Below, in pieces: positions 23,928 to 34,838 of a stretch of 64,000 nucleotides of DNA. Every line of letters begins with the position of its first letter. Within the stretch, counting starts at the first letter, position 1. The notes under the pieces were generated by a model that saw only the letters and a list, made by a program, of their open reading frames with translations, was not told where the DNA came from and did not search any database. Source of the DNA: Oerskovia rustica (GTDB lineage: Bacteria; Actinomycetota; Actinomycetes; Actinomycetales; Cellulomonadaceae); contig NZ_JACSQQ010000003.1 of the NCBI RefSeq assembly GCF_014836555.1, forward strand, positions 47,008-111,007, written 5' to 3'. The position numbers and the translations under genes were made by a program.

Positions 23928-26900
23928 TCATGCCCGACGGCGTCGCGCACCCACGAGGAGCGCGCCACCTCCGCCGACCAGCAGCAGCGCGACGGCGGCG
24001 ATGCCCGCGACGCGGGCTCCCGTGGCCGCGAGACCGCCGTCCGCGGTGTTCGCGGTGTTGGTCAGGGTCACCGCGACGGTCTGGCCCGCGCCGATCGTGA
24101 CCGACGTGACCTTCTCGCCGTCGACCGTGAAGACCGGGCTCCCCCAGCGCACGCCCGCGACCTTCGGCAGGTCGACCTCCGCGAGGTCGACGACCGTCCC
24201 CGCGGGGAGGTTCGCCGGGCCCTCCACGACGGTGCCGTCGGCGCGGACCGTCAGGGTGCCCTCGGTGTGCTCGCCGTTGACGGTCCCGGAGATCGCGACC
24301 GTGAACTGCGTGTCCGCGGGGACCTTCGACGCATTCGTCCCCGTGACCTCCTTGGTGATCGTGAACCCGCCGACCTGGGCGGCCACGACGTCTGCCGTGT
24401 TGGTCAGGGTGACCGCCGCGTTCTCGCCGTCGGCGATGGTGACCTGGGCCGGGCTGAACACCGGGGTGCCCCAGACGACGCCCGCGACCGCGGGCAGGTC
24501 GATCTCGGTGAACGTGACGACCGTGCCGACCGGGAGGTTCTGCGGGCCGTTCACGACGGTGCCGTCGGCGCGGACCGTCGCAGTCCCCGCCACGGCCTGA
24601 CCGTCGAGCTCGTAGGAGTAGGCGACCGTGAACTCGGTCCCGGCCGGGACGACCGAGGCGCCGGAGCCCTCGACGACCTTGCTGAGCGAGAACCCGCCAG
24701 CGGGCTCGGCGTTCGCCGTGTTGGTCAGGCTGACCGCGGTGTTCTCGCCGTCGGCGACCGTGACGCTCGCCGGGCTGAACTCCGGCGCCCCCCACACGAC
24801 GCCGTCGACCGACGGCAGGTCGATCTCGTCGAACGTCACGACCGTGCCGACCGGGAGGTTCTGCGGACCGTCCACGACGGTCCCGTCAGCGCGCACGACG
24901 AGCGTGCCCGATGCCGGTGAGCCACCCAGGTCGTAGGAGTAGGCCACGTTGAACTCGGTGTCTCCCGGGACCTGGCCGGCCGTCTCGCCCACGACGCTCT
25001 TGCTCATCGAGAAGCCGCCTGCGGGCTCGGCGTCCGCCGTGTTGGTCAGGGTGACCTCGACGGTCTGGTCCGCGCCGATGGTGACGACGTCGGGGCTGAA
25101 GACCGGGGTCCCCCACACGACGCCGTCGATGTCCGGGAGGGCGATCTCGCCCAGCGTCACGACGGTCCCCTCGACCAGGTTGCCCGGGAAGAGCACGGGG
25201 GTGCCGTCGGTCAGGCCCGCGAGGGTGCCGGTCTGCGTCTGGCCGTCCTGCTCGTAGGAGTACTGCACGGTGAACTCGGTCCCGTCCGGGACCAGGTCGG
25301 CAGCCGCACCCGTGACGGCCTTCGTGATCGAGAACGTCCCCACGGCGAGGTCGGCCGTGTTCGTGAGCGTGACGGCGGTGTTCTCGCCGCTGCCGATCGT
25401 GACGCTCGCCGGGCTGAAGACCGGCGCGCCCCACTCGACGCCGACCACGTGGGCGGGCGCGAGCTCGGTGAACGTCACCACGGTGCCCGCGACGAGGTTC
25501 TGCGGGCCGTCGACGACGGTCCCGTCGGCGAGGAGCGTCAGGGTCCCGCCGAGCGTGGCGCTGCCGACCGTGTACTCGTAGGTCGCGGTGAACTCGGTGC
25601 CCGCCGGGACGCGGCCCGCGGCCTCTCCCGTGACGGACTTGGCCATCGAGAACCCGCCGAGCGGGACGACGACCGCGTTCGCGGTGTTCGTCACCGTCAC
25701 CAGGGCGTTCTCGCCGTCGGCGATCGTGACCGAGGCCGGGCTGAAGACCGGCGCGCCCCAGACCACGCCGTCGACCGACGGCAGGTCGATCTCGTCGAAC
25801 GTCACGACCGTGCCGACCGGGAGGTTCTGCGGGCCGTCGACGACGGTCCCGTCCGCACTCACCGTCAGGTCGCCCGTGGTCGCGACGCCACCCAGGTCGT
25901 ACGAGTACCGCACGGTGAACTCGGTCGCGTCGGGCACCTGGTCCGCTGCGAGCCCGGTGACCGCCTTCGCGAGCGAGAAGCCGCCCGCCGGGGCGTCGAG
26001 CGCCGTGTTCGTCAGCGTGACCTTGGCCTTCTCGTTCGCGCCGACCACGAGGCTCTCCGGGCTGAACACCGGGGTGCCCCACACCACGCCGTCGACCGCG
26101 GGGAGCGCGATCTCCTCGAACGTCACGACAGTGCCCTCACGGAGGTTCTGCGGGCTGTCGACCACGGTCCCGTCCGCCGTGACGCTCATCGTGCCCGAGG
26201 TGGGCACGCCGTCCAGGTCGTAGGCGTAGCGAACGGTGAACTCGGTGCCCGCGGGCACCTTGCCGGCGGCCGCGCCCGTGACGGACTTGGCCATCGAGAA
26301 CCCGCCCGCCCGTGCTTCCTCGGCGGTGTTCGTCAGCGTGACCTTGGCGTTCTCGTTCGCGCCGACCACGAGGCTCTCCGGGCTGAAGACCGGCGCTCCC
26401 CACACGACGCCGTCGACGTCGGGCAGGCTCACCTCGCCGAACGTGACGACCGTGCCGGCCGGGAGGTTCTGCGGGCCGTCGACGACGGCGCCGTCTGCGC
26501 GCACGGTCAGGGTGCCGGACAGCGGTGCGCCGTCGAGCTCGTAGGAGTAGGCCACCGTGAACGCGGTGTCCGCGGGCACCGTGCCCGCAGGAGCGTTGTC
26601 GACGACCTTCTGGACCGAGAAGCCACCGACGGGGATCACCGCGGCGTCGGCCGAGTTGGTCAGCGTGACCAGGGGGTTCGTGCCGTCGGCGACCGTGACG
26701 GAGGCGGGGTCGAACGACGGCGCGCCCCACACCACGCCGGGCACGGTCGGCAGGTCGATCTCGGTGAAGGTCACGACCGCGCCGACAGGCAGGTCCTGCG
26801 GACCGTCGACCACGGTGCCGTCGGCGAGGACCTTCACGGTCCCCTGGGTCGACGTACCGTCGACCGTCACGGTGTAGGCGACGGTGAACTCTGTGTTGGC

Positions 26901-28397
26901 GGGGACCTGCCCCGCGGCGAGCCCGGTGAGCGCCTTGGCGACCGAGAACCCGCCGAGCTGCGCCGACGCGGTGTTGGTGAGCCGCACGGCGGTCTTCCCG
27001 GAGGCACCGACCGTGACGGTGTCCGACGGGGCGAACGACGGGGTGCCCCACTCGACCCCGGGGACGACGGGCAGCTCGGGCTCGGAGAGCGTCACGACGG
27101 TCCCGGCGGGCAGGCCCGCCGGACCGTCCACGACCGTGCCGTCGGCCTTCACCGTGAGGGTGCCCGTGACGGGCGTCCCGTTCGCGGTGTACGAGTACGC
27201 GACGGTGAACTCGGTGCCGGCCGGCACGAGGTCCGCGCCGTCACCGACCACGCTCTTGGCGACGGTGAACCCACCGGGCTCGACCGAGAGGCACGTGAAC
27301 GGGCCGGGCCCGGTCCAGGGGTAGCTGTGCATCTCGAGCCCGGTCGTGAGTCCGTCGATGCCGAAGCTCAGGTCGCCGCCGACGATCACGCGCCCGTTCG
27401 TGGCGGTCGAGATCGTGGCGTCCGCTGCGGGCGCGAGGATGGTCCCGAGGAACTGGTCGCCGCGCCCGATGCTCAGGCTAGGGGTCTCGACGAAGTTCCA
27501 GAGCGTGCGCGCGGCCCAGTTGCCGAACCCGGGGGTGTTGAAGTCGTTGATGAACCCCGTCCCGTTGCCGGACCAGTAGTTCGGCGCGATGTCGACAGGC
27601 TCCGTGCCGGTCACGTTGATCGCGATCGAGACCTTGTCGGGGATCCCGACGAAGTACATCTCCTTGGCGCCGTCGAGCAGCGTCGCGGGGATCGTGAACA
27701 CCTGCGGGTCGTCCGTCCCGGACCCCGTGAAGGTGAGCTGGTTGCCCGAGCGCGTCACGGCCGTCCCGCCCCACGAGGCGATCGTGGCCGAGGTGTCCTC
27801 GACGACCGTGCGGAAGTCGGCCCAGGGCGCGAGCGCGGCCGGAGCCCCGATCCCCTGCTGGACCGGCGCGCTGGACGCCGACCCGGTGGTGCTGAGCGAA
27901 CCGTCGATCGTCAGCGTGCCGCCGACGTTCACCCCGCCGCCGTTCGGCTGCGTCGAACCGACGGTGATGCCGGTCTCCGCCCCCACGGTCATGGAGCCGC
28001 CCACGTGCAGCATGGTCGACCCGTCGGGCGGCGCGATCTGCGACCCCGCCCCGACGGCGCCGATGCTGAAGTTGCCGGGGGCGTCGAACGTCGCGTCGCC
28101 CTCGACGACCAGGACGCCCTCCGACTCGGCGGCGCTGTGGAGCGCCGAGTAGTTCCCCCCGACCCAGACCGCCACGTTGCTGTCGGTGAAGATCGGGACG
28201 CCGGTCGACACGTTGGGCATCTCACCCGGCGCCGGGCACTGCGGGAGCTGCGCCTTGGCCGCGGCGGACGCAGGTGCCACGAGCGGACCCGCGCCCAGCG
28301 CGACCGCTCCCGTCAGGGCGAGGACCGCGGCGGTGGCGGCGGCGACGGCCCTGCCGAACGGGGAACCCGCTCGACGAGCCCGGTGGGGGGTGCTCAT
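23928..28397 (-). CDS. LAATG-anchored surface protein: choice-of-anchor A domain plus ten DUF5979 repeats
   Basis: A 1489-residue cell-surface protein. Order: Sec signal peptide (to about residue 46, APASAAA); a choice-of-anchor A-type domain at about 50-370 (DSNVAVWVGGNYS, VGGSMTVGAE, and WNFVETPSLSIGRGDQFLGTILAP, given in part); then ten repeats of about 107 residues of the DUF5979 type, each starting near GGFSxAKxVTG and ending VTLTNTA, with internal TEFTVxYSY and DGTVVDGPQNLPxGTVVTF; finally a sorting signal LAATG (1456-1460), a hydrophobic helix and RRRRA. LAxTG is the class E sortase signal of high-GC actinobacteria, so the protein should be attached covalently to the wall, but no sortase gene lies nearby. 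GAAGGAG precedes the ATG. Probably adhesive or stalk-forming; ligand unknown. Confidence 0.92.
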   Translation of the reverse strand: MSTPHRARRAGSPFGRAVAAATAAVLALTGAVALGAGPLVAPASAAAKAQLPQCPAPGEMPNVSTGVPIFTDSNVAVWVGGNYSALHSAAESEGVLVVEGDATFDAPGNFSIGAVGAGSQIAPPDGSTMLHVGGSMTVGAETGITVGSTQPNGGGVNVGGTLTIDGSLSTTGSASSAPVQQGIGAPAALAPWADFRTVVEDTSATIASWGGTAVTRSGNQLTFTGSGTDDPQVFTIPATLLDGAKEMYFVGIPDKVSIAINVTGTEPVDIAPNYWSGNGTGFINDFNTPGFGNWAARTLWNFVETPSLSIGRGDQFLGTILAPAADATISTATNGRVIVGGDLSFGIDGLTTGLEMHSYPWTGPGPFTCLSVEPGGFTVAKSVVGDGADLVPAGTEFTVAYSYTANGTPVTGTLTVKADGTVVDGPAGLPAGTVVTLSEPELPVVPGVEWGTPSFAPSDTVTVGASGKTAVRLTNTASAQLGGFSVAKALTGLAAGQVPANTEFTVAYTVTVDGTSTQGTVKVLADGTVVDGPQDLPVGAVVTFTEIDLPTVPGVVWGAPSFDPASVTVADGTNPLVTLTNSADAAVIPVGGFSVQKVVDNAPAGTVPADTAFTVAYSYELDGAPLSGTLTVRADGAVVDGPQNLPAGTVVTFGEVSLPDVDGVVWGAPVFSPESLVVGANENAKVTLTNTAEEARAGGFSMAKSVTGAAAGKVPAGTEFTVRYAYDLDGVPTSGTMSVTADGTVVDSPQNLREGTVVTFEEIALPAVDGVVWGTPVFSPESLVVGANEKAKVTLTNTALDAPAGGFSLAKAVTGLAADQVPDATEFTVRYSYDLGGVATTGDLTVSADGTVVDGPQNLPVGTVVTFDEIDLPSVDGVVWGAPVFSPASVTIADGENALVTVTNTANAVVVPLGGFSMAKSVTGEAAGRVPAGTEFTATYEYTVGSATLGGTLTLLADGTVVDGPQNLVAGTVVTFTELAPAHVVGVEWGAPVFSPASVTIGSGENTAVTLTNTADLAVGTFSITKAVTGAAADLVPDGTEFTVQYSYEQDGQTQTGTLAGLTDGTPVLFPGNLVEGTVVTLGEIALPDIDGVVWGTPVFSPDVVTIGADQTVEVTLTNTADAEPAGGFSMSKSVVGETAGQVPGDTEFNVAYSYDLGGSPASGTLVVRADGTVVDGPQNLPVGTVVTFDEIDLPSVDGVVWGAPEFSPASVTVADGENTAVSLTNTANAEPAGGFSLSKVVEGSGASVVPAGTEFTVAYSYELDGQAVAGTATVRADGTVVNGPQNLPVGTVVTFTEIDLPAVAGVVWGTPVFSPAQVTIADGENAAVTLTNTADVVAAQVGGFTITKEVTGTNASKVPADTQFTVAISGTVNGEHTEGTLTVRADGTVVEGPANLPAGTVVDLAEVDLPKVAGVRWGSPVFTVDGEKVTSVTIGAGQTVAVTLTNTANTADGGLAATGARVAGIAAVALLLVGGGGALLVGARRRRA
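24050..27275. repeat. ten tandem ~320-bp protein-coding repeats
   Basis: Repeat units start (in the minus-strand sense) near 27275, 26960, 26630, 26305, 25985, 25660, 25345, 25020, 24700 and 24375. They are similar but not identical at the DNA level, with long shared stretches around the GPQNLP and VVWG codons, so repeat-number change by recombination and assembly collapse are both possible. Confidence 0.85.
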
Positions 28398-31078: not shown

Positions 31079-31852
31079 TCAGCCCGCGGGCCGCATGAGG
31101 GGCGGGTTCAGCACGGCGGGCACGGAGGCGGGCGCCTCGTCCTGCCCGACGACGTCGCGCGGCCCGGCGGAGCGCTCCGCCTCGGGCGCGAGCCGGTAGA
31201 GCGCGGCGGGCCGGCCCGTCCCGCCCGAGGTCGACTCCCCCGTCTCGACGAGGAACCCCGGGGTGCCGACGGCCTTGCGGTGGAAGTTGCGGGGATCGAG
31301 CCGGGTGCCCCAGACGGCCTCGTAGACCGCTCGGAGCTGCGCGATCGTGAACTCGGGGCCGCAGAAGGCGGTCGCGAGCGTCGAGTACTCGAGCTTCGCG
31401 CGGGCACGCTCGACGCCGTCGCGCAGGATGCGGTGGTGGTCGAACGCGAGCCCTTCCGGGTCCGCGAGCGCCTCCTCGACCGGGTACCAGTCGACCTGTG
31501 CGGCGTCGCTGCCCGCGGTCGGCAGGCCGTACGTGGGTGCGAGCAGGAGGTGCGCGACGGTCAGCACGGGGCCGCGCGGGTCGCGGCCGAGCGGCCCGTA
31601 GGTGCGGAGCTGTTCGAGGTGGCCGGGGACCGCGACGCCCGTCTCCTCGGCGAGCTCGCGGGCGGCGGCCTGCGGCAGGGACTCGTCGGGCAGGACGAAC
31701 CCGCCCGGCAGGGCGAGGCGGTCCCGGAAGGGGTCGAGGAGCCGCGTCACGAGCAGGACCTGGAGCGTGCCGTCGCGGACCGTCAGCGCGACGACGTCGA
31801 CCGTGACGGGGATCCGGGCGGCGGACGGCGGGGTCTCCGGGTGCTCGCTCAT
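31079..31852 (-). CDS. Nudix domain-HTH protein, NrtR-like regulator
   Basis: A 257-residue protein with an N-terminal Nudix domain and a C-terminal winged helix, the layout of NrtR regulators of NAD metabolism. The Nudix box is intact: G51-x5-E57-x7-R65-E66-L67-x-E69-E70-x-G72, so hydrolysis of ADP-ribose-like compounds is possible. The wHTH region (about 145-225) includes FTIAQLRAVYEAVWG and DPRNFHRKAVG, motifs typical of the NrtR DNA-binding part. An extra 30-residue tail follows. Divergent from the SPFH and NAD-kinase-like genes, with two operator-like sites in the 96-bp gap. Inference: an ADP-ribose-sensing repressor of its neighbours and itself. Confidence 0.9.
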   Translation of the reverse strand: MSEHPETPPSAARIPVTVDVVALTVRDGTLQVLLVTRLLDPFRDRLALPGGFVLPDESLPQAAARELAEETGVAVPGHLEQLRTYGPLGRDPRGPVLTVAHLLLAPTYGLPTAGSDAAQVDWYPVEEALADPEGLAFDHHRILRDGVERARAKLEYSTLATAFCGPEFTIAQLRAVYEAVWGTRLDPRNFHRKAVGTPGFLVETGESTSGGTGRPAALYRLAPEAERSAGPRDVVGQDEAPASVPAVLNPPLMRPAG

Positions 31853-31869
31853 GCCTCCACCCTACCTTC

Positions 31870-31890
31870 TTATCGTCAAGTTGACGCTAA
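31870..31890. promoter_or_regulatory. NrtR-type operator 1
   Basis: A 21-bp palindrome with half sites TTATCGTCAA and TTGACGCTAA around a central G (one mismatch per arm). It lies 18-38 bp upstream of the Nudix-HTH start. NrtR operators in other bacteria are 21-bp palindromes of similar AT-flanked form. Confidence 0.8.
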
Positions 31891-31903
31891 CGACGATCCT
31901 GGC

Positions 31904-31924
31904 TTATCGTCAAAGTGACACAAA
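31904..31924. promoter_or_regulatory. NrtR-type operator 2
   Basis: A second, weaker copy: TTATCGTCAA then AGTGACACAAA, identical to the first site over the left ten bases, 34 bp away and 25-45 bp upstream of the SPFH start. The pair suggests control of both divergent transcripts by one regulator. Confidence 0.7.
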
Positions 31925-31948
31925 CAACGACGACGGACGGAGCCTCCC

Positions 31949-32995
31949 ATGGCCACCATCAAGCGCTACCCCTGGCTGCGACACTTCCTCGGCAGCCCCA
32001 CGGGCGCCGTGATCCACCTCAAGACGGGGCGCGTCGCGCACCGCGGGATCGGCCAGGCCTTCTGGTTCCGTCCCGGGACCTCGGTCCTCAGCGAGGTCCC
32101 CGTCGACGACCAGGAGCTGCCCGTCCTCTTCCACGCCACGACGCGCGACCACCAGGACGTCACGGTCCAGGTCAACGTGACGTACCGGTTCGCGGACCCG
32201 GCCGTCGTCTCGCAGCGGCTCGACTTCGGGATCGACCCCGACACCGGCGCCGCGACGACCACGGGCCGCGACCAGGTCGCGACGATCATCGGCCAGCTCG
32301 CGCAGAGCCACGCGATCGACCACCTCGCGGCCGTCCCTCTGACGACCGCGCTCGAGCAGGGCGTGAGCCAGGTCCGGGCCCAGCTCGTGGAGGCACTGGG
32401 CTCGGACGCCCGGCTGGCCTCGACCGGCATCGAGGTCCTCGGGGTCCACGTGCTCGCGGTCCGCCCCGACGGCGACGTCGAGCGCGCCCTCCAGACACCG
32501 TTGCGCGAGCACGTCCAGGCCGAGGCCGACCGCTCGACGTACGAGCGGCGGGCGCTGGCCGTCGAGCGCGAGCGCACCATCTCGGAGAACGAGCTCGCGA
32601 GCCAGATCGAGCTCGCCACGCGGCGGGAGAGGCTCGTCGCGCAGGAGGGCGCCAACCTCCGGCGCGAGGCCGAGGAGACCGCCGCCGCGGCGCTCGTCGA
32701 GGCCCGGGCCGCGGCCGAGCGTCGGGACCTCACGTCGGCCGCTCAGGCCGAGGAGATCCGCCGGCTCGGCGAGGCGAACAACGCCAAGTTCCGGACCGTC
32801 ATGGACGTCTACGAGGGCATGGACCGGTCGACCATCCTGGCCGTGGCGATGCGCGACCTCGCCGGGGCGCTGCCCAAGATCGGCAGCCTGACCATCACGC
32901 CCGACCTCCTCAGCGGGGCGCTCGCCGCGTTCACCGGTGCGGGGGCCGGGGGCGGCTCGGCCACCGGCGGCGCCACCGCCGGCCGGGGAGCGTGA
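31949..32995 (+). CDS. SPFH/band-7 domain protein
   Basis: A 348-residue SPFH-domain protein (stomatin/prohibitin/flotillin superfamily). The SPFH core runs from about 20 to 175 (HLKTGRVAHRGIGQAFWFRPG, in part; VTVQVNVTYRFADPA; LASTGIEVLGVHVLAVRPDGDVERAL, in part), followed by a long charged coiled coil at about 185-275 (EADRSTYERRALAVERERT) and a glycine-rich tail. Unusually there is no N-terminal membrane helix, so membrane association, if any, must be by a hairpin or a partner. First gene of a two-gene rightward operon with the NAD-kinase-like gene and under the shared operators. Possible role: scaffold for the NAD-linked proteins (inference). Confidence 0.9.
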   Translation: MATIKRYPWLRHFLGSPTGAVIHLKTGRVAHRGIGQAFWFRPGTSVLSEVPVDDQELPVLFHATTRDHQDVTVQVNVTYRFADPAVVSQRLDFGIDPDTGAATTTGRDQVATIIGQLAQSHAIDHLAAVPLTTALEQGVSQVRAQLVEALGSDARLASTGIEVLGVHVLAVRPDGDVERALQTPLREHVQAEADRSTYERRALAVERERTISENELASQIELATRRERLVAQEGANLRREAEETAAAALVEARAAAERRDLTSAAQAEEIRRLGEANNAKFRTVMDVYEGMDRSTILAVAMRDLAGALPKIGSLTITPDLLSGALAAFTGAGAGGGSATGGATAGRGA

Positions 32996-32996
32996 C

Positions 32997-34037
32997 GTGC
33001 CCCTCCAGCGGCGCGTGGTCGTCGTGCACCGGCGGACCGAGCTCGACGAGCTCCTCGACCGGCACGCGACCCGCGGTCAGGCCGAGTTCTTCCTCCGCAC
33101 GCGCGGCCGCACGCTCGCCACGGTCCAGGAGCGGCACGACGCGGTGACCGAGGCCCGCGCCCGGGTCGTCGCCGCGATCCCCGAGGGCTGGCGGCGGGCC
33201 GACGTCGAGCGCGCCGACCTCGGCCGGTTCCTCGTGGCCCCCGAGGACGTCGTGGTCGTGGTCGGGCAGGACGGGCTCGTCGCGAACGTCGCCAAGTACC
33301 TCACGGACCAGCCGGTGCTGGGCGTCGACCCCGAGCCGGGGACCAACGCGGGCGCGCTCGTCCGGCTCGACGTCACCACGGCCGTCCGTCTCCTGACCCG
33401 CGCGGGGAAGGCCGCGAGCACCCCCGGCAGTGCCGGTCCTACCCGCCCCAGGCCCGACGGCGCCGCGCACCTCGGCAGCCTCGGCTGGCGGACCGAGGAC
33501 CTCACGACGGTCGTGGCCCACCTCGACGACGGGCAGCACCTGGCCGCGCTCAACGAGGTCTTCGTGGGGCACCCGTCGCACCAGTCGGCGCGGTACCGGA
33601 TCGCCGCGGACGGGCCCGGAGGCGGGCGAGGAGCGCGCGGGGGCAGCGGCGAGCGGGGCGCGGCCGGTGGTCGCGGCGGGGAACGCGGGTCCGTCCGGGT
33701 CGAGCGGCAGTCGTCGTCGGGCGTGATCGTCGCGACCGGCGCCGGCGCGACGGGCTGGTGCGCATCGATCGCGCGCGAGCGCGGCGGGCGACGCCTCCCC
33801 AGCCCCACGGACCCGCTGCTCGCCTGGTTCGTGCGCGAGGCGTGGCCGTCGCCCGCGACCGGCGCGGACCTGACCGAAGGGCTGCTCGACGCGGGCGGCG
33901 AGCTCCGGCTCACGGTCGAGTCGGACCAGCTCGTGGTCTTCGGCGACGGCGTCGAGTCGGACCGGCTCGTCGCGACCTGGGGCCAGGAGATCACGGTGCG
34001 GGTCGGGGCGAACCGGCTGCGGCTGGTCGTCGGCTGA
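32997..34037 (+). CDS. degenerate NAD-kinase-like protein
   Basis: A 346-residue protein that resembles ATP-NAD kinases over its length. Residues 84-96 (DVVVVVGQDGLVA) align with the GGDGT motif but read GQDGL; VLGVDPEPGTNAGAL matches the following substrate loop; LNEVFVGHPSHQSARYRI matches the NE motif; SSGVIVATGAGATGWCASI matches the DG...TPTGSTAY segment. The aspartate of the motif is kept, two other positions are not, so activity or substrate may have changed. A low-complexity Gly/Arg/Ala insert lies at about 208-232. GTG at 32997 begins 1 nt after the SPFH stop, so the genes are one unit. With the NrtR-like regulator this makes an NAD-linked locus. Family assignment is from motifs only. 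Confidence 0.75.
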   Translation: MPLQRRVVVVHRRTELDELLDRHATRGQAEFFLRTRGRTLATVQERHDAVTEARARVVAAIPEGWRRADVERADLGRFLVAPEDVVVVVGQDGLVANVAKYLTDQPVLGVDPEPGTNAGALVRLDVTTAVRLLTRAGKAASTPGSAGPTRPRPDGAAHLGSLGWRTEDLTTVVAHLDDGQHLAALNEVFVGHPSHQSARYRIAADGPGGGRGARGGSGERGAAGGRGGERGSVRVERQSSSGVIVATGAGATGWCASIARERGGRRLPSPTDPLLAWFVREAWPSPATGADLTEGLLDAGGELRLTVESDQLVVFGDGVESDRLVATWGQEITVRVGANRLRLVVG

Positions 34038-34085: not shown

Positions 34086-34838
34086 ATGACGACCTATTCC
34101 GGGACGAAGGAGTTCGAGGGCGCGACCTTCGTCAGGGCCAGCTTCAAGGGCGCCACCCTGCGGTTCTCCGACGTCAGCGGTGTGACGATGCGCGGCGTCG
34201 ACCTGGACGGCCTCGACATCGACAGCCACGACCTGTTCTTCGGCCGCCTGATCGTCAACGGGGTCGACGTGGTGCCGTACGTGGACGCCGAGCTCAACCG
34301 GCAGTTTCCCGGTCGCGAGCTGCAGAAGGCGCAGACCGTCGAGGGGCTGCGCGAGGGGTGGGTCGCCGTGCAGGCCGCGTGGCAGGAGACGGTGGACGGC
34401 ACGCCACCTGACCTGGTGGACGCCCACGTGGAGGACGAGTGGTCCTTGGCCCAGACCCTGCGGCACCTCGTCCTGGCGACCGACGCCTGGCTCGGCGGCG
34501 GGATCCTGCGGAGGCAGCAGCCGTTCCACGAGATCGGGCAGATCTTCACCGGCGCCGACCGGATGGGCTTCGACATGTCGATCTTCCGCGCGCAGCCGCC
34601 TGCGTACGAGGAGATCCTCGCGGTGCGGGCCGAGCGGCAGGGGCAGGTGACCGAGTTCCTGGCCACGGCCACCCCGGGCCTGCTCGCGGAGGAACGCGAC
34701 GACCCGTGGGGCGGCGAAGACTGGCACCCCACCGTGGGGGACTGCGTGCGCGTGATCCTGGAGGAGGAGTGGGCGCACCTGCGCTACGTCCGCCGGGATC
34801 TCGCTCTGCTCCGTGAGGAGCCGCTCGCGTCACCGTGA
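34086..34838 (+). CDS. DinB-family protein with N-terminal pentapeptide repeats
   Basis: A 250-residue two-part protein. Residues 8-50 form pentapeptide-like repeats (FEGATFVRASFKGATLRFSD), a right-handed beta helix; residues about 85-245 form a DinB-type four-helix bundle with the histidines of LAQTLRHLVLATDAW and EEEWAHLRYVRRDL as likely metal ligands, plus HPTVGDC. DinB-like proteins in actinobacteria often act as thiol (mycothiol/bacillithiol) transferases, but this one is uncharacterised. It starts 48 nt after the NAD-kinase-like gene and could be a third gene of that operon. Confidence 0.8.
   Translation: MTTYSGTKEFEGATFVRASFKGATLRFSDVSGVTMRGVDLDGLDIDSHDLFFGRLIVNGVDVVPYVDAELNRQFPGRELQKAQTVEGLREGWVAVQAAWQETVDGTPPDLVDAHVEDEWSLAQTLRHLVLATDAWLGGGILRRQQPFHEIGQIFTGADRMGFDMSIFRAQPPAYEEILAVRAERQGQVTEFLATATPGLLAEERDDPWGGEDWHPTVGDCVRVILEEEWAHLRYVRRDLALLREEPLASP

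Follow-up and report, generated by a model that had tools for sequence, protein, structure and literature searches.

A conserved three-gene module in Oerskovia rustica joins an NrtR-type regulator to an SPFH protein and an NADK2-like protein

We describe a three-gene module of Oerskovia rustica in which an NrtR-type regulator stands beside a new pair of effector genes. The module lies in a window of 64,000 nucleotides from contig NZ_JACSQQ010000003.1, and positions are coordinates of this window unless another locus is named. A Nudix-winged-helix regulator of the NrtR family type (257 residues, Nudix box intact) is encoded on the minus strand at 31079-31852. Divergent from it, the plus strand encodes an SPFH/band-7 protein at 31949-32995 (348 residues, without a membrane helix and with a long C-terminal helix), followed at 32997-34037 by a protein with a nicotinamide adenine dinucleotide (NAD) kinase fold of the NADK2 type, in which GQDGL replaces GGDGT (346 residues). 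The three proteins are inherited together: the module is real and conserved, and what is new is NrtR-type regulation of this effector pair. As to its function, we see about an even chance that a repressor sensing adenosine diphosphate ribose (ADP-ribose), or a related compound, controls an NADK2-like kinase and the SPFH assembly that carries it, and that the system responds to NAD breakdown or ADP-ribosylation.

A sequence-only reading of this DNA had already given the layout correctly. All three open reading frames (ORFs) are open as it placed them, the gap between the regulator and SPFH genes is exactly 96 bp (31853-31948), and the kinase-like ORF starts with GTG exactly one nucleotide past the SPFH stop codon.

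That reading had staked its idea of a system on co-location of the genes in other genomes, and such co-location is what we find, in several phyla and within the host's family. With the kinase-like protein alone as query, 80 GTDB loci were examined out of 360 candidates: nearly all have an SPFH gene directly upstream of the kinase-like gene, and most have a Nudix gene divergent from the SPFH gene, i.e. the full triad. Among 150 genomes of the host's family the kinase-like protein is found in 50, the SPFH protein in 50 and both in 49, so that both effectors are present in 49 of the 51 genomes that have at least one. The two exceptions are a contig that ends inside the SPFH gene (G142) and an orphan remnant (G132). 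A further kinase-like match (G058, E 5e-5, in a 3166-residue frame) was discarded as spurious, and tblastn did not confirm the candidate loci L125 and L126. Within genera the module has a patchy distribution, resembling that of mobile or often lost modules.

The pairwise distance matrices of the three proteins correlate with r 0.92-0.97 over 77 complete loci, a level that none of 999 permutations reached; part of this correlation is shared species history, and it is evidence of co-inheritance, not of contact. Besides actinobacteria, the triad spans Alpha-, Beta- and Gammaproteobacteria: annotation shows the same order, Nudix (-), SPFH (+), kinase-like (+), in Rhizobium, Methylomonas and Providencia, and tblastn shows it in Cupriavidus, Proteus and Acinetobacter. 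E. coli gave no match for the P. mirabilis triad. At the distant actinobacterial locus L190 the three genes are co-stranded, and the kinase-like frame reaches only mid-protein.

No constant fourth gene emerged from an all-against-all comparison of flanking ORFs, which returned local synteny and likely antisense ORFs only. The DinB-pentapeptide gene that follows (34086-34838), earlier thought a possible member, must be dropped: it accompanies Oerskovia loci only and is lacking in some of those.

At L198 (4980-5924), L199 (3094-5924) and L197 (3097-5924) the triad or a remnant of it adjoins the tetracycline-efflux gene tet(H) or tet(J), and on pHHV216 a kinase-like gene and a partial SPFH gene are flanked on one side by a transposase and on the other by tetR(H)-tet(H). 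Two loci labelled Sphaerisporangium cinnabarinum (L080) and Sporosarcina beigongshangi (L091) carry Cellulosimicrobium-like and Arthrobacter-like cassettes; the mismatch may reflect mislabelling, contamination or transfer.

The gap between the divergent genes contains two 21-bp palindromes of the TTATCGTCANNNTGACGATAA type. Operator 1, TTATCGTCAAGTTGACGCTAA, occupies 31870-31890 and agrees with 17 of 18 consensus positions; operator 2, TTATCGTCAAAGTGACACAAA, occupies 31904-31924, agrees with 15 of 18 and starts 34 bp after the start of operator 1. Two sites with at least 14 of the 18 positions of TTATCGTCANNNTGACGATAA are present in 105 of 108 homologous gaps. Mononucleotide shuffles of the gaps gave none with two sites of at least 12 of 18, a figure that is optimistic because the gap set holds relatives and some duplicates and the motif was derived from it.

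Genome-wide scans are independent of the gap set used for the motif. Allowing up to three mismatches in seven Oerskovia genomes, matches occur solely at the two gap operators, and the reversed motif, used as a control, has no match in the same genomes. At up to one mismatch in 91 genomes of the family, 32 of the 33 places, by our count, are inside a cassette gap, and the 64 of these genomes that are free of the cassette contain no match. The spacing, start to start, is mostly 34 or 45 bp and sometimes 56 bp, i.e. steps of one helical turn. Judged from sequence, the gap holds a dedicated pair of putative operators far beyond chance, which bears out the two similar operator-like sites noted earlier.

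The gap also contains one promoter-like match for the SPFH and kinase-like genes, TTGACG-N18-TATCGT (31881-31910, plus strand), a candidate that rests on a consensus match at 9 of 12 positions. Its two hexamers fall within operators 1 and 2, an arrangement consistent with a repressor that controls both divergent genes. In gammaproteobacterial gaps, repeats of like layout have different letters, TTAnnGTC-N5-GACnnTAA; operator motifs are highly variable in the NrtR family (PMC4666351).

The regulator scores above the Pfam cut-offs for both PF00293 NUDIX (67.3 bits) and PF21906 NrtR_WHD (59 bits), and it is the sole NrtR_WHD match in its own genome. Its nearest solved structures are SoNrtR (3gz5), 2fml and AraR (5bs6), and its profile matches 3gz5 and 5bs6 across the full length. 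The AraR_C profile matches it too. With NCBIfam NF050029, the ADP-ribose-responsive NtrR equivalog, it scores 118 bits, below the 400-bit cut-off. Both the regulator and 75 of 81 relatives have an intact Nudix box (REUxEE); the remaining six are the proteobacterial ones and the distant L124. The earlier description of an NrtR-like protein with an intact Nudix box is therefore confirmed. A second, separate group of close regulator relatives (E about 1e-82 to 1e-93) occurs at other loci of the family, in G104, G008, G032 and others.

NrtR-family regulators sense ADP-ribose (PMC6800001, PMC4666351). No hydrolase activity was found in MsNrtR, but ADP-ribose makes it release DNA (PMC6800001). The system cannot depend on ligand hydrolysis by the regulator, but hydrolysis may have a tuning role in the main clade.

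Further indications of the signal come from Streptomyces, where the SPFH-kinase pair has no adjacent Nudix gene and both operators are retained. The operator scan covered 61 Streptomyces genomes, and the places classified here are among the matches listed. A near-universal site, TAGTCGTCTGCCTGACGATAA with close variants, stands directly before the regulator orthologue in all 15 loci examined, and the other operator loci examined stand before the SPFH-kinase pair in 10 of 10. Thirteen further places belong to neither group. Five of these are directly before an ADP-ribosylglycohydrolase gene (G903, G910, G915, G916 and G919), and the three proteins that were checked match PF03747 with 209-217 bits (cut-off 26.2). 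Two lie at the arcA-Pnkp spot that is the cassette site in other species (G903 at L261, G925 at L259); with no SPFH gene near arcA, these operators look like scars of cassette loss. One is before a SIR2-like gene (PF13289, 33.9 bits; G919, L266 1838-3500), and five have no clear target.

Operators before ADP-ribosylglycohydrolase genes tie the regulon to ADP-ribose, and this common operator is the strongest independent hint of an ADP-ribose-like signal. For the NAD/ADP-ribose-responsive system proposed earlier, the link to ADP-ribose is thereby backed, while ADP-ribose as the ligand itself is something we infer. In the Oerskovia window no ADP-ribosylglycohydrolase gene adjoins the triad.

Three side observations come from Streptomyces. 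The SIR2-like gene in G919 is a second NAD-consuming type of target, in a single case. The Streptomyces ADP-ribosylglycohydrolase genes adjoin RlaP genes, encoding an RNA repair nucleotidyltransferase (e.g. L253 71-1865). In one Streptomyces genome (L218 5674-10739) the SPFH-kinase pair lies beside the RNA-repair genes Pnkp and Hen1.

The kinase-like protein, which is 96% identical to a relative in Oerskovia turbata, is hardly recognised by standard profiles: it matches Pfam PF01513 NAD_kinase with 15.7 bits, below the gathering score of 25.5, and only 9 of 37 relatives are matched by PF01513 even weakly. Its fold is clearer. In a model with a predicted local distance difference test (pLDDT) score of 90, human mitochondrial NADK2 is the best structural match (Z 24.3, root-mean-square deviation 3.0 Å over 279 residues), compared with Z 19-22 for canonical NAD kinases, the next type being at about 21.7. 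The family profile also prefers NADK2 (E about 1e-15, the best canonical enzyme reaching 1e-7), and its N-terminal region is aligned by NADK2 only; identity to NADK2 is about 24%. Structure prediction had been proposed earlier as a check on the kinase assignment, and the fold does match NAD kinases.

In NAD kinases the GGDG motif, the NE/D motif and region II form the NAD site, and the Asp of GGDG is the catalytic base (PMC8553519). The corresponding motif was read correctly from the sequence as GQDGL, and it is the rule in the family: among 141 members there are 132 with GQDGL, seven with GPDGL, one with GSDGL and one with GPDGM, so that the position after GGDG, otherwise T, S or N, is Leu in all but one. 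The catalytic Asp92 and Asn186 are invariant in the family and Glu187 is at least 90% conserved. The equivalent Asp, Asn and Glu are needed for NAD kinase activity (PMC8553519). Even in very distant members the catalytic Asp, the Asn-Glu and the C-terminal Asp-Gly are invariant or nearly so. The uniformity of GQDGL across several phyla points to a specialised function rather than decay, and the term degenerate, first applied to this NAD kinase, does not fit a motif that is altered and conserved.

Two features of the protein vary. An insertion of about 30 residues rich in Gly, Arg and Ser (33612-33698) is modelled with low confidence; other genera have it in a much shorter form or lack it. The Roseomonas protein (L192 4989-6173) is extended at its C terminus by a stretch that includes a hydrophobic segment, which may span a membrane.

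Three other explanations bear on what this protein does. It could be an additional NAD(H) kinase of the ordinary kind, boosting NADP(H) during redox stress, with the SPFH protein doing no more than stabilising or localising it and the regulator sensing NAD status. NADK2 being the closest fold, the retained catalytic residues and the link of NADK2 to removal of reactive oxygen (PMC8553519) agree with this. However, a housekeeping NAD kinase with GGDGT is already encoded elsewhere in the host genome, the GQDGL kept across phyla is unlike true NAD kinases, and the operator common to ADP-ribosylglycohydrolase genes points to ADP-ribose rather than redox; we regard a second NAD(H) kinase as unlikely. 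That the protein is a catalytically dead sensor, binding NAD or ADP-ribose and switching the SPFH assembly, seems quite improbable to us: the change from GGDG to GQDG and the Leu that follows speak for it, but a pure sensor would need none of the catalytic residues and the C-terminal Asp-Gly that distant members keep.

The third possibility is a kinase acting on a sugar, a nucleoside or a lipid instead of a pyridine nucleotide, under a regulator that senses a sugar as AraR does. RefSeq labels of kinase-like relatives include "sugar kinase", the DAGK_cat profile matches the protein weakly, and the AraR_C match of the regulator points the same way. On the other hand, the comparison of flanking ORFs yielded no regularly linked sugar or lipid genes, regulators of the AraR type no longer have the Nudix box (PMC4666351) that this clade keeps, and the operator recurs before ADP-ribosylglycohydrolase genes. 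We give this explanation as little credit as the dead sensor.

The SPFH protein matches PF01145 Band_7 with 51.1 bits (cut-off 23.6). Its model (pLDDT 87) has an SPFH fold and one very long C-terminal helix, with Z 12-14 to HflK/C, prohibitin (PHB), erlin, vault and flotillin. An N-terminal membrane anchor is typical, not universal, in SPFH/band-7 proteins, and no membrane-helix-like segment is seen in this family, where the highest hydropathy over 19 residues is 1.77 and the median 1.25; the earlier observation of a band-7 protein without such a helix is upheld.

Taken as an ADP-ribose-responsive system, the locus would be a self-contained response module that has spread horizontally, and the regulator a dedicated repressor bound at two helically phased operators overlapping the likely promoter. 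NAD cleavage, or de-ADP-ribosylation of macromolecules, would free ADP-ribose or a close relative. This presumed ligand would bind the Nudix domain and lift the putative repression; with its Nudix box intact, the regulator of the main actinobacterial clade may also degrade the ligand and so reset the switch. The SPFH protein would then form a soluble ring or cage and recruit, by a presumed contact, the translationally coupled kinase. With its catalytic Asp and Asn-Glu kept, the kinase would transfer phosphate to NAD(H) or an ADP-ribose-type nucleotide, its presumed substrates, so that NADP(H) is restored or the nucleotide is withdrawn from circulation; the module would thus have a role in NAD-cleavage or ADP-ribosylation stress.

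Several observations weigh against such a system. Not all regulators of this family have the same ligand: that of AraR is arabinose, and NdnR responds to NAD (PMC4666351). The ADP-ribosylglycohydrolase sites are found in 5 of the 61 Streptomyces genomes, among the matches listed. Four of the five extend into a longer inverted repeat over the ribosome-binding region, so a role at the RNA level is possible at those four; the site in G910 is the core palindrome only. The Gly to Gln change in the phosphate-binding motif could mean reduced or abolished kinase activity, or a new substrate. Finally, in Treponema and Roseomonas the SPFH-kinase pair occurs without the regulator alongside; the core of the module is therefore the pair, which the regulator often accompanies.

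A more specific version of the ADP-ribose-responsive system is tentative and rather doubtful: that an SPFH cage with an NADK2-type kinase of new specificity, for ADP-ribose or modified NAD, is an inducible bacterial response, for defence or damage, to toxins or phages that cleave NAD and carry out ADP-ribosylation, the repressor both sensing and destroying the signal. We found no viral or phage homologues of the module, and PADLOC returned only weak, partial matches to defence-system models (best E about 0.003). The phage role suggested from sequence is possible and stays unsupported.

In comparison with known systems, the module shares with the NrtR family (SoNrtR 3gz5, MsNrtR, BtAraR 5bs6, NdnR) the Nudix and NrtR winged-helix domains, the 21-bp palindromes and autoregulation, and its tandem operator sites resemble those reported for AraR. 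In contrast to that family, the target is the SPFH-kinase pair and not NAD-synthesis or pentose genes, the main clade retains an intact Nudix box, and the host genome has just two sites. The kinase-like protein is like human NADK2 (7r4j, 7n29) in structure and profile, the N-terminal helical region included, but differs in having GQDGL for GGDGT, in its low sequence identity and in the pairing of its gene with an SPFH gene. The SPFH protein has the fold and long C-terminal helix of the SPFH assemblies (HflK/C, prohibitin, erlin, flotillin, major vault protein); unlike them it has no membrane helix, and its partner is an NADK-fold gene, not an FtsH or NfeD gene.

Nudix-HTH repressors and ADP-ribosylglycohydrolases have been predicted to act as host systems against ADP-ribosylation (PMC9503650, section 3.8). 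With these glycohydrolase-centred systems the module has in common a Nudix-HTH negative regulator and the theme of ADP-ribose. However, neither SPFH nor NAD kinase is named in PMC9503650, and here the glycohydrolase is linked by common operators and not by gene neighbourhood. The module resembles such systems in its switch, but its content places it outside them. We found no description of the SPFH-NADK-like pair in the literature searched; it may be mentioned in Rodionov 2008 (on NrtR) or in Burroughs and Aravind 2016 (on RNA repair).

Elsewhere in the window, a large repetitive ORF on the minus strand (23928-28397, 1489 residues) contains numerous similar domains, each about 100 residues long. 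It ends in a hydrophobic C-terminal segment and a basic tail, and is adhesin-like.

A three-gene unit kept across several phyla indicates a physiological function that annotation as "hypothetical protein" or "sugar kinase" has overlooked. Through it, the biology of NAD and ADP-ribose would gain an SPFH assembly. The NADK2 fold would acquire a bacterial branch whose catalytic motif is altered yet conserved, and the NrtR family would include a regulon beyond NAD synthesis.

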